Assembly (NCBI RefSeq): GCF_900520355.1
Contig: NZ_LS999521.1
Coordinates: forward strand, 1,240,001-1,304,000
Source of the DNA: Acinetobacter calcoaceticus
GTDB lineage: Bacteria > Pseudomonadota > Gammaproteobacteria > Pseudomonadales > Moraxellaceae
Length of the DNA stretch: 64,000 nt
Reading direction: 5' to 3'
Below, in pieces: positions 47,665-50,627 of the stretch. The notes beneath the pieces are model-generated. The model ran no database searches, was not told where the DNA came from, and saw nothing but the letters and a program-made list of their open reading frames with translations. A program made the position numbers and the translations under genes. Numbering within the stretch: position 1 is the stretch's first letter; the number at the start of each line of letters is the position of its first letter.

Positions 47665-48147
47665 ATGAAAAGAAAAAATACAAAGATAGGAGATGTATTT
47701 GCTGTTAAAGTCGATAGTGAGTGTAAAAAATACTTTCAATTAGTAGCTTTGGATTTAACTCAATTAAATAGTGATGTAATTCGAGTGTTTAAAAAAGAAT
47801 ATTCTGAAAATACTCATCTCGATTTATTTGAAATTATTAATGATGAGGTAGATTTCTATGCACATTGTATAACTGTTTTTGGTATTAAATTAGGTTTCTG
47901 GAAAAAAGTTGGGAACATGCCCGACGTTAGAAGTATTGATGTGTTATTTCGTAGTAGCAGCGATAGTCCAAAAACAAAAATATCTAATAATTGGTGGATT
48001 TGGAAAGTTAATGAGCCACAGCAATATGTAGGAAAATTAGAAGGGGAAAACAAATTTGCAGAAATTGGGAGTGTTATACCACCAGATAGTATTATTTATA
48101 GGATAAAAACAGGTAGGTATGATTTCTTATACCCTGAATTTGAATAA
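47665..48147 (+). CDS. Imm26-like immunity protein (orphan)
   Basis: The 160-residue soluble protein opens with KIGDVFAVKVDSECKKYFQL and has later FWKKVGNMPD and WWIWKVNEP segments, which resemble the Imm26 family of polymorphic-toxin immunity proteins. No toxin gene (Rhs, CdiA or similar) is visible on either side, so it is an orphan, probably kept for protection from neighbours. The region is AT-rich, consistent with acquired DNA. The family call is from memory of the pattern. Confidence 0.6.
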   Translation: MKRKNTKIGDVFAVKVDSECKKYFQLVALDLTQLNSDVIRVFKKEYSENTHLDLFEIINDEVDFYAHCITVFGIKLGFWKKVGNMPDVRSIDVLFRSSSDSPKTKISNNWWIWKVNEPQQYVGKLEGENKFAEIGSVIPPDSIIYRIKTGRYDFLYPEFE

Positions 48148-48301: not shown

Positions 48302-49393
48302 ATGCTAATCTCAAGCCATAGATTACCGAAGAGTCTTAAGGACAAAGCCAATCAAAAAGTTGCTAAACTTTCAGGGTCATTGTTAGGAGCTGTTACACCA
48401 GAGCGGCAATCGGTATTGCCAAAAGAGTTTGAACTTACTCCTCATACTCTTTATAAACGCTTTGGGAGCACACATTACGGGATCATGGTACCTGACTTAC
48501 CTGAACCATTCCGATACTTATCTTGGGCTTCAGTTTTAGGTTATGTAGGATTTACGATTACAGATACCAACTATCAAATGTCTAAGGATGGAAAAGGGGA
48601 TACAGCTTCGTTAGTGCATGGAACAGCCTTATCGACAACTTCTGAAGCTTACAGAACATATTCAATTAAAGATGATATTAAATTTAGCCAAAATCCTTTT
48701 GCGATTAATTTTGATAATCAAACTATCATGCATGAGCAAGGTGATGGATTCTTACTCATTACTAAAAGAGAAGATTTAGAGCTAGAACTTTATTTAAAGC
48801 CCACAAAAGCTATTTCATGGTTTGCCTATAGTGGCCTGTATAAGCACTTTAGTGTGCTCATGCAATATGAAGGTCATATCAAACAAAAGGGAAATAGTGA
48901 AACCGTTCAAGGACTTTGCACGTTGGAGTCTTGGAAAGCTGTAGCTACCTCAATGCTCAAAAACAAATGGTTAGTTGAGAATATTCAACTTCCTGTAAAA
49001 GTCTTTAGCTATCAAGTTATTAATATTGACCACGAACAGCAGTTATTGCTGGCTTTTATTTGCTATGAAGACCAACCCATTTTGACTTCTGTTTACTATC
49101 GTCATATTGATGGAACATCAATTCAATACAATGGAGATATACTTTTTGAAGTAACGAGTCTTCAACAAGAACCGCAGATTACTCCCGATAATTTTTCAAT
49201 GAATGTACCAAATACTTTTCGCTGGGTTGCTTATCACAAGAATCAAAAGGTTTTAAATATTTCAGCACATGTAGACACTCCATATTGTTTTGGATTGGCT
49301 GCTGGTTTTGTTTCTTCATATGTATGGCAAGGTGAATTCTATGATCAGGCATTGGTTGGCAGAGGTTATCTTGAATATATAGACCGAAGATAA
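48302..49393 (+). CDS. DUF6670-like protein, copy 2
   Basis: The 363-residue paralogue of the protein encoded at 16162-17259. Shared segments in the same order are THYGIMVPDLPEPFRYLSW near 57, VFSYQVINIDHEQQLLL near 235, and GRGYLEYIDR at the C-terminus. Identity looks low outside these. No signal peptide or membrane helix is seen. AGGA precedes the ATG. Function is unknown. Confidence 0.7.
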   Translation: MLISSHRLPKSLKDKANQKVAKLSGSLLGAVTPERQSVLPKEFELTPHTLYKRFGSTHYGIMVPDLPEPFRYLSWASVLGYVGFTITDTNYQMSKDGKGDTASLVHGTALSTTSEAYRTYSIKDDIKFSQNPFAINFDNQTIMHEQGDGFLLITKREDLELELYLKPTKAISWFAYSGLYKHFSVLMQYEGHIKQKGNSETVQGLCTLESWKAVATSMLKNKWLVENIQLPVKVFSYQVINIDHEQQLLLAFICYEDQPILTSVYYRHIDGTSIQYNGDILFEVTSLQQEPQITPDNFSMNVPNTFRWVAYHKNQKVLNISAHVDTPYCFGLAAGFVSSYVWQGEFYDQALVGRGYLEYIDRR

Positions 49394-49537: not shown

Positions 49538-49566
49538 TTGACTGTAATAGGGTTGAGCACTATCCT
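49538..49566 (+). promoter_or_regulatory. Predicted promoter of the C4-like RNA
   Basis: TTGACT (49538-49543), a 17-bp spacer and TATCCT (49561-49566) would start transcription near 49573, at the base of the first hairpin. Confidence 0.5.
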
Positions 49567-49572
49567 TTGCCT

Positions 49573-49804
49573 GCTGGCCTACATCGCCAGCCGGCTTTGA
49601 CAGGCTGTTTTTCATCTAGGGCACCAAGAAAGTAATTTTTTGGTGACGAACTCGTTCGTCCTGCCTTCGTAGCGGTAGGACGGAGGTGGGACGCCTTGTG
49701 CGTGCCGGTTCCTAGATGACTGGTCTGTCAACCCACCTTCGTTCTGCCACCATAATTATTTGACAGTAATTCGGTAGAACTTCTATTTCATCTAGGAGTC
49801 CGCC
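49573..49804 (+). ncRNA. Structured RNA, C4 antisense-RNA-like regulatory element
   Basis: A GC-rich 232-base stretch in an AT-rich background folds extensively. Visible stems are GCTGGC/GCCAGC (49573-49591), CACCAA/TTGGTG (49622-49645), GACGAA/TTCGTC (49645-49660), a 9-bp stem at 49657-49682, and a 10-bp stem CGGAGGTGGG/CCCACCTTCG (49681-49741). One antisense block, CCTAGATGA (49711-49719) then CTGTCA (49725-49730), is complementary in order to two sense blocks: TGACAG (49598) plus TCATCTAGG (49612), and TGACAG (49761) plus TCATCTAGG (49788). The second covers the ribosome-binding site of the ORF at 49805. This is the layout of the C4 antisense RNA of phages P1, P7 and P4-like elements. That identity is inference; the complementarity is seen directly. 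Confidence 0.6.
49794..49798 (+). promoter_or_regulatory. Shine-Dalgarno inside the antisense target
   Basis: AGGAG lies six bases before the ATG at 49805. Its first three bases are part of the target TCATCTAGG, so pairing with the upstream antisense block would hide it. Confidence 0.7.
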
Positions 49805-49897
49805 ATGCGTACTATTTCTTGTTATTTTTTGGCCTTTGCCAAGCTCTCTCTATCCATACCGCTCAACTGGTCTTTAAAACGGTTTAAACATTTATAG
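49805..49897 (+). CDS. Short ORF under the C4-like switch, possibly Icd/Ash-like
   Basis: A 30-codon ORF (MRTISCYFLAFAKLSLSIPL and on to KRFKHL) has a good AGGAG site. In P1-type elements the gene controlled by C4 RNA is icd, which blocks host cell division, and the Ash/Icd-like families often carry an LAFAK-type segment, so this may be a remnant. It could equally be a short leader peptide. No database check was possible. Confidence 0.45.
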   Translation: MRTISCYFLAFAKLSLSIPLNWSLKRFKHL

Positions 49898-50066
49898 GTT
49901 TAGCCTTTAGATCGTTACGACTAAAAAATCATATCAACAATAAAGCTTGAGATAGGTTAGCGCATCCTTTGTGTGCAGCTTTCGCATGCCTGTTTTTAGC
50001 ACTCATTTTAAGAGTGAAGGCATTTCTATCTCTTTTATATACAACAAAAAATTATCTTTGAGCAGA

Positions 50067-50627
50067 ATGTTTATGCCAAATTTAGAATCTTCATTCAGAG
50101 CATTAAGAGTGCTCCACGCGGCAAGAGACCTATTTAATCAACATGGCTTTCATAAGGTCGGTGTCGACCGAATTATTGCTGAAGCCAGAATTTCAAAATC
50201 CACTTTTTATAATGATTTTCACTCTAAAGAAAAGCTCATCGAGATGAGCCTAACTTTTCAAAAAGATGCATTAAAAGACGAGGTATTTTCAATTATCCAT
50301 TCATATCGTGAACTCATGTTGTTCGATAAGCTCAAGAAAATTTTCTATTTACATGCAGATTTAGAGGGCTTTTACCATTTGCCCTTTAAAGCAATTTTTG
50401 AAATTGAAAAGCTTTATCCAACCGCCTATAAGGTCGTAATTGACTATCGAAATTGGCTCATTGATGAAATTTATAAACTACTTTTAACACTAAAAGTTAC
50501 GGCCTCAATTGAAGATGCTCACCTGTTTTTATTTGTGATTGATGGCGCTATGGTTCAACTTTTAGGAGAAAATCAGCTAGATGACCGAGATAGATTATTA
50601 AACTATTTTTTAACCATGGTTAATTAA
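50067..50627 (+). CDS. TetR family transcriptional regulator
   Basis: The 186-residue regulator has the helix-turn-helix VDRIIAEARISKSTFYNDFHSKE near 30-50 and a helical ligand domain. The ORF is open back to a GTG at 49971, adding 32 residues (starting MCSFRMPVFSTHFK) that do not look like a TetR N-terminus; they may be residual sequence of the phage-like element. Starts at 50067 or 50073 fit the family. A terminator follows. Confidence 0.8.
   Translation: MFMPNLESSFRALRVLHAARDLFNQHGFHKVGVDRIIAEARISKSTFYNDFHSKEKLIEMSLTFQKDALKDEVFSIIHSYRELMLFDKLKKIFYLHADLEGFYHLPFKAIFEIEKLYPTAYKVVIDYRNWLIDEIYKLLLTLKVTASIEDAHLFLFVIDGAMVQLLGENQLDDRDRLLNYFLTMVN

Follow-up and report, generated by a model that had tools for sequence, protein, structure and literature searches.

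A C4-type antisense RNA heads a TetR gene in Acinetobacter calcoaceticus and belongs to a multi-copy family of probable leader switches

The window analysed here, a 64,000-nucleotide stretch of Acinetobacter calcoaceticus (contig NZ_LS999521.1, positions 1,240,001 to 1,304,000), carries a C4-type antisense RNA between two copies of its own target, followed by a 30-codon ORF and the gene for a TetR-type regulator (Table 1). The Rfam covariance model for C4 (RF01695) matches with 56.1 bits, above the gathering cut-off of 45, and the c4-a1b1 model (RF03163) gives a match at 49560-49611 with 32.2 bits (E 3.9e-6), below its gathering cut-off of 46.7. The blocks TCATCTAGG and TTTGACAG each occur twice, once on either side of C4, and their complements CCTAGATGA and CTGTCAA form its a' and b' loops. 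The original prediction, made from the sequence alone, had placed these complementary blocks in this order around a C4-like switch, with the downstream block overlapping the ribosome-binding site of the short ORF, and each block lies where it was placed. The layout of the putative promoter is alike in other C4 copies of the genome, as judged by eye. A GGT motif at 49674, near the 5' end of C4, is likely the RNase P cleavage site, by analogy with the GGW motif of published relatives (PMC5320573). We conclude that the window holds a genuine C4 RNA, and that the element has been domesticated, exists in many copies and bears cargo.

Table 1 Parts of the C4 locus, with positions counted in the window.
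Feature	Position	Strand	Details and basis
Promoter-like element	49538..49566	+	-35 TTGACT, 17-bp spacer, -10 TATCCT; read in the sequence
5' hairpin GCTGGC-CTACATC-GCCAGC	49573..49591	+	From sequence; by description, the 'Region 1' of published Group 1 sRNAs
Upstream self-target a1b1	49596..49620	+	b1 49596-49603 (TTTGACAG), a1 49612-49620 (TCATCTAGG); sub-threshold c4-a1b1 match, duplex, cognate rank
C4 antisense RNA	49668..49754	+	a' 49711-49719 (CCTAGATGA), b' 49725-49731 (CTGTCAA); RF01695, predicted canonical fold
Downstream self-target a2b2	49759..49798	+	b2 49759-49766 (TTTGACAG), a2 49788-49796 (TCATCTAGG), overlapping SD AGGAG (49794-49798)
30-codon leader ORF MRTISCYFLAFAKLSLSIPLNWSLKRFKHL	49805..49897	+	ATG at 49805
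Hairpins ahead of tetR	49952..50023	+	Terminator-like 49952-49997, overlapped by alternative 49986-50023
TetR-type regulator gene (cargo)	50073..50627	+	ATG 50073 or in-frame 50067; PF00440, 4.9e-14 (Pfam)

Both self-targets of the C4 RNA are supported by shuffle controls. Pairing of a'b' with the upstream block reaches -31.5 kcal/mol, a value as low being found in none of 2000 dinucleotide shuffles, and pairing with the downstream block, which lies over a ribosome-binding site of the same operon, reaches -27.6 kcal/mol (3 of 2000). Compared with the other copies in its own genome, the window C4 has cognate rank 1 of 19 upstream targets and 1 of 20 downstream targets. In the predicted minimum free energy structure of the whole leader a1b1 pairs with a'b', and the C4 segment alone is predicted to take the canonical three-stem fold with a' and b' in loops (-42.0 kcal/mol). 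The folding model thus predicts two mutually exclusive states, one in which a1b1 captures a'b' and one in which C4 stands alone in its canonical form. The covariance-model and folding checks proposed with the original prediction both came out in its favour.

Searches of this and other genomes overturned the claim that the switch is isolated. Above the RF01695 cut-off, the genome itself (one contig of 3.93 Mb) has 20 C4 copies, which is enough to reject an isolated C4, and 145 of 175 genomes of the genus hold at least one. Eighteen of these carry from 15 to at least 23 copies and the other 127 carry 1-10; with at most 23 candidates scored per genome, the high counts are minimum values (for G061, 23 copies here and 26 in a second count). 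In a sample of the family, C4 was found in 47 of 149 genomes and in 8 of 16 genera. Of the Acinetobacter records filed as plasmids, 22 contain stretches similar to a 561-base query, with at least 80% of the query covered in 8 of them; among the matches listed, several are chromosome-sized and look misfiled, and others are 13-135 kb. Thirty phage records matched as well, but the 20 listed are all named 'Acinetobacter phage MD-2021a', range from 3 to 379 kb and were taken for bacterial sequence.

The TetR gene had been described as a neighbour of the switch. It is indeed present, but it is more than a neighbour, as 16 of the 20 own-genome C4 copies are followed in the same orientation by a homologue (a single gene serves the tandem pair L002 and L012), which is thus the usual cargo. 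The remaining four copies (L004, L009, L016 and L020) head a same-strand lipoprotein-like gene of about 105 aa, so all 20 head one or the other. These lipoprotein-like proteins carry a CDCIYQRLEQ-like motif in three copies and CNCIYNALEE in L009. At E<=1e-30, with 19 candidates scored, the window TetR protein has matches at 15 places in its own genome, itself included; homologues were found in 35 of 175 genus genomes. When the best TetR loci of 29 other genomes were taken (L063-L091; 34 other genomes match), all 29 had a C4 match. Conversely, in the 93 modules from loci fetched by C4 alone, the first downstream ORF of at least 80 aa within 700 nt shares the strand of C4 in 88 and is opposite in none, while 5 have no such ORF. 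Counted in the same way over all 139 distinct modules, the downstream ORF is on the same strand in 132, opposite in 2 and absent in 5, and the upstream ORF is on the same strand in 59 and opposite in 65. We conclude that the TetR gene belongs to the C4 unit.

The 139 modules derive from 169 C4 matches, of which 129 from other loci and 14 unsplit own copies made 143; repeats of one place, copies split by an insertion sequence (IS), one match at a locus end and weak opposite-strand matches were left out. Because TetR or the 30-aa peptide served to pick part of the modules, the count of 68 with TetR cargo is inflated; some of the smaller cargo clusters are also doubtful ORFs. Further cargo, named by eye, includes a small membrane protein and lipoproteins, with replication or antirepressor-like genes in prophage-type copies, where the SD often sits directly at the replication or antirepressor-like gene. 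C4 copies with the 5' hairpin and lipoprotein-like cargo were also seen outside Acinetobacter, in one further genus of the family (g10: L208, L213); the protein that follows C4 in L213 is like the C4-headed lipoprotein-like proteins of the own genome.

A Pfam scan of six flanking proteins recovered no recognisable phage structural or replication gene, in line with the earlier view that no phage surrounds the locus. The 'Imm26-like' neighbour was not borne out, with no Imm26 match in Pfam (E<=1) or NCBIfam (E<=0.1). Among the four window proteins compared with PHROGs, the TetR protein has its strongest match, at 2.2e-44, in phrog_21633, a family without known function, and weaker ones in six more unknown-function families; its relatives are thus counted among (pro)phage proteins. 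The 160-aa ORF at 47665-48147, which is the one that had been labelled Imm26-like, has only a weak match to the uncharacterised phrog_35594 (9.8e-5). Directly upstream of the C4 module, on the same strand, lies a DUF6670 protein gene (48302-49393; PF20375, 4e-39).

The original prediction likened the locus to the C4/icd switch of P1/P4-type phages. The parallel stands for C4, for a1b1 and for a target over a ribosome-binding site, but not for Icd. In the immI region of phages P1 and P7, icd and then ant follow the C4 RNA. Here a 30-aa ORF and then the TetR gene follow, and the ORF peptide has no match in Pfam (E<=1) or PHROGs (E<=10), which leaves no ground for the Icd label; Icd or another phage family was rejected for it. 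The locus resembles the P1/P7 region in the C4 fold, the a'b' loops, the upstream a1b1 and the target over a short-ORF ribosome-binding site. It differs in that neither Icd nor Ant was found, in its TetR cargo, and in having about 20 chromosomal copies with differing codes.

An ORF of the window type occurs in 43 modules and gives 42 distinct peptides, of which 41 have 28-32 aa and the remaining one 40; the search pattern fixes the first codons (ORF starting ATGCG), and 24 of the 43 modules come from loci fetched by TetR or peptide. A comparison of 30 distinct equal-length ORFs gave a pN/pS of 0.69 for the reading frame itself, as against 0.92 and 0.95 for the two other frames. The ORF is thus probably translated, though under weak constraint, which is what one would expect of a leader ORF. 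One could instead read the unit as a type I toxin-antitoxin pair with the 30-aa peptide as toxin and C4 as antitoxin. C4 does cover the SD of the ORF, and the peptide is short, partly hydrophobic and basic, with a recurrent length and a SLKRFNRL-like C-terminal end. However, a toxin would sit poorly with the weak constraint, the lack of a Pfam or PHROGs family and the same-strand TetR gene that follows, and the ORF is replaced by unrelated 11-aa ORFs in three of the four lipoprotein copies and by other short ORFs in other species (by eye). We regard a toxin-antitoxin pair as unlikely.

About twenty such leaders are present in the genome, most with a recognition code of their own. On the upstream side, the cognate pairing is the best one in 17 of 19 copies (rank 2 for L008, rank 3 for L016; L012 has no upstream target), and the cognate mean of -24.9, compared with -15.3 when permuted, was reached by none of 100000 permutations. 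Downstream, the cognate C4 has rank 1 in 5 of 20 copies (L001, L005, L006, L013 and L019) and rank 2 for L002, L004 and L010; the mean is -17.3, compared with -15.1 permuted, and 88 of 100000 permutations reach it. No downstream cognate preference was found in nine TetR copies (L003, L007, L008, L010, L011, L014, L015, L017 and L018) or in the four lipoprotein copies, the ranks across these 13 being 2-15, and L012 has rank 19. Since these 13 copies lack a downstream preference, blocking of a2 alone cannot be the whole mechanism across the family. Could the C4 RNAs instead act in trans, as sRNAs regulating unrelated host mRNAs or incoming phages, as put forward in PMC5320573? Their a' loops are variable, abundant processed RNAs are reported in strain AB5075, and tandem arrays include solitary C4 copies without an upstream target, such as L012. 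Yet each C4 fits its own leader best in those 17 of 19 cases, a comparison made among upstream targets of its own genome only, and such a role appears quite improbable.

Cognate pairing also extends across the genus. For 68 distinct codes, none of 20000 permutations reached the cognate signal, upstream or downstream; the cognate C4 ranks first in only 22 (upstream) and 13 (downstream), many codes being mutually close. This test left out 20 of the 139 modules, which fail the loop pattern and most of which look prophage-type by cargo (by eye). A second matched code is found at the orthologue of the window locus in another genome (L065 in G141; peptide 93% and TetR 95% identical), where a' GTCTAA replaces CCTAGATGA, a1 and a2 both carry TTAGAC, and the b blocks are kept. 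The C4 stems and spacer of L065 differ from those of the window too, so the matched change may be a single cassette replacement rather than stepwise compensation. A site upstream of pqiA, which has C4 within 1.5 kb in 6 of 16 genomes with four different codes, is likewise read as cassette exchange at a fixed site. Of the ten other genomes, G044 has a contig beginning too near, G090 has its module on another contig, and G006, G014, G061, G065 and G068 have C4 or TetR 2-5 kb further off. Beside some full modules there are also C4 copies, tandem or solitary, that lack an upstream a1b1 (L028, L075, L027, L038, L063 and L012), and their codes differ from that of the adjoining module.

The origin of the family in phage immunity raises the reading that chromosomal C4 RNAs still confer immunity against incoming C4-type phages, and the genus does contain prophage-type C4 modules with replication or antirepressor-like genes. 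In these modules, however, no chromosomal code outdoes the module's own C4 on the upstream target in 10 of 11 (L185 is a near tie and L045 the exception) or on the downstream target in 7 of 11 (not L045, L176, L185 and L198), in a weak test with modules picked by eye, codes from different genomes and crude Region 1 sorting. We consider such a defence very improbable.

Some copies are interrupted. An IS3-like insertion sequence of 1464 bp, with rve and HTH_21 transposase domains, is present in six copies in the genome, 100% identical, and all six (L015-L020) interrupt C4 genes at one and the same point, in the 5' strand of the P1 stem, and point the same way. Duplications of 3 bp match at five of the six, not at L017 (by eye). 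Copies 89-93% identical in other genomes occupy the same place in C4, with the orientation unchanged, in all four examined (L092-L095, one per genome), out of six matches listed with two candidates scored per genome. In nine distant relatives of the insertion sequence, no C4 was found in the left flank, and several of these flanks are A-rich and terminator-like (by eye). With 6 of 20 own copies split in this way, and 13 of 20 lacking a downstream cognate preference beyond chance rank, the family could be taken for decaying prophage remnants without present function. This, too, has a very low probability, as cognate upstream pairing is kept over the 68 codes, the TetR frames are open except for one listed match with a stop (G068), and relatives are reported to be expressed in AB5075 (PMC5320573).

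We think it likely that the window holds one of about 20 chromosomal C4-headed operons, in which a domesticated P1/P4-type immunity leader switches its TetR gene. In this proposal, a single transcript would run from the promoter through a1b1, C4, and a2b2 with the leader ORF into tetR. The C4 segment would fold and be cut out, probably by RNase P, and its freed a'b' loops would bind a2b2 and block translation of the leader ORF. Without translation, ribosome protection would be lost and premature termination ahead of tetR would leave the gene off. Where a1b1 instead captured a'b' in the nascent leader, no C4 would be made and tetR could be on, so that the leader might be bistable. As the codes differ between copies, the units could switch largely one by one. 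In the immunity of phage P4 (CI RNA), translation of a leader ORF decides on termination. The proposed leader would share with P4 an antisense RNA cut from its own leader that acts through a short leader ORF on downstream transcription; unlike P4, the element is chromosomal, and termination here is proposed by analogy.

A hairpin with a T-rich stretch precedes tetR in all 15 TetR copies scanned, a count made without a shuffle control, and in some of them the terminator-like hairpin overlaps an alternative hairpin. In the window, the terminator-like arms were read by eye by analogy with L002, L006 and L019, and the alternative hairpin comes from the predicted fold. An alignment of 33 leaders gave no covariation support for the hairpins; the sequence is nearly invariant, which makes the base pairs uninformative. 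Before tetR, C exceeds G only moderately (mean skew 0.15; control 95th percentile 0.22), which does not support the use of Rho.

A C4-like sRNA family was reported in A. baumannii in 2016 (Weiss 2016, PMC5320573). Strain AB5075 has 21 such Group 1 sRNAs, which are expressed, apparently processed at a GGW motif, and proposed to target phage or host mRNAs; their Region 1 loop consensus is CUACAUU (PMC5320573). The same paper describes C4 of P1/P7 as cut from a longer transcript, with the b' loop covering the ribosome-binding site and a' giving specificity. The copies described here share with Group 1 the C4 match, the Region 1 hairpin, the variable a' loop and the copy number (21 in AB5075, 20 here). 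They differ in the downstream TetR gene, the cognate leader target and the leader ORF, none of which the accessible text of that paper names for Group 1; 'TetR' matches once in its main text, which we take as part of 'tetraloop'.

Separately, 11 related TetR regulators and one pseudogene (TTTRs) have been described in A. baumannii, and their stochastic activation drives the switch from opaque to translucent colonies (Perez-Varela 2022, PMC9802203). This compares with 15 TetR places in the present genome, and the window protein is likewise TetR-type (PF00440). To compare the two families in AB5075, locus-tag numbers were converted to position by one linear two-parameter map. By this measure, each of the 12 TTTR locus tags falls near a different one of the 21 C4-like sRNAs, at a mean distance of 10.6 kb (worst single distance 28.9 kb), and none of 1000 random tag sets is as close (minimum 18.5 kb). 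Judged by these positions, the two families appear to occupy largely the same loci, and the C4-headed TetR genes described here probably belong to the TTTR family that drives colony switching.

The report of the TTTRs leaves the activation mechanism open. It names mRNA stability or Rho-dependent termination as possibilities for SrvS, a plasmid sRNA that raises TTTR expression, and the word 'antisense' does not occur in its main text (PMC9802203). We found no complementarity signal between SrvS and the C4 loops or targets. When TTTR promoter regions are fused to lacZ on a plasmid, the fusions follow the chromosomal ON or OFF state (PMC9802203), so something acts in trans, which could be C4 or the TetR protein itself; TetR autoregulation without C4 could explain the effect. 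High expression of ABUW_1645, one of the HTH-sharing TTTRs, is reported to be toxic (PMC12742793). Neither C4 nor ABUW_1645 is mentioned in the main text of a study with RNA-RNA ligation data for AB5075 (PMC11472050). In the literature searched, mostly titles and the openings of abstracts, no report joining C4 RNAs to the TetR family was found, though earlier publication is possible.

The element class was thus known; what is new is that each leader is matched to itself, that a gene constantly follows downstream, and that the elements are likely tied to the TetR switch regulators. Tentatively, and with less confidence than in the leader switch itself, the opaque/translucent switch of A. baumannii may consist of some 15 domesticated phage-immunity leaders, bistable and with private codes, whose related TetR genes flip singly, with codes exchanged as cassettes at set places in the chromosome and with solitary C4 copies and the insertion sequence, which would target C4, tuning which units flip. 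With these loci, an sRNA family that had been an orphan gains a concrete target in its own leader and in the TetR gene that follows, and the stochastic TetR activation left open in PMC9802203 gains a candidate mechanism. More broadly, a device of phage immunity would have been turned into a switch for chromosomal genes, one that carries cargo of several types and whose many codes are self-matched.
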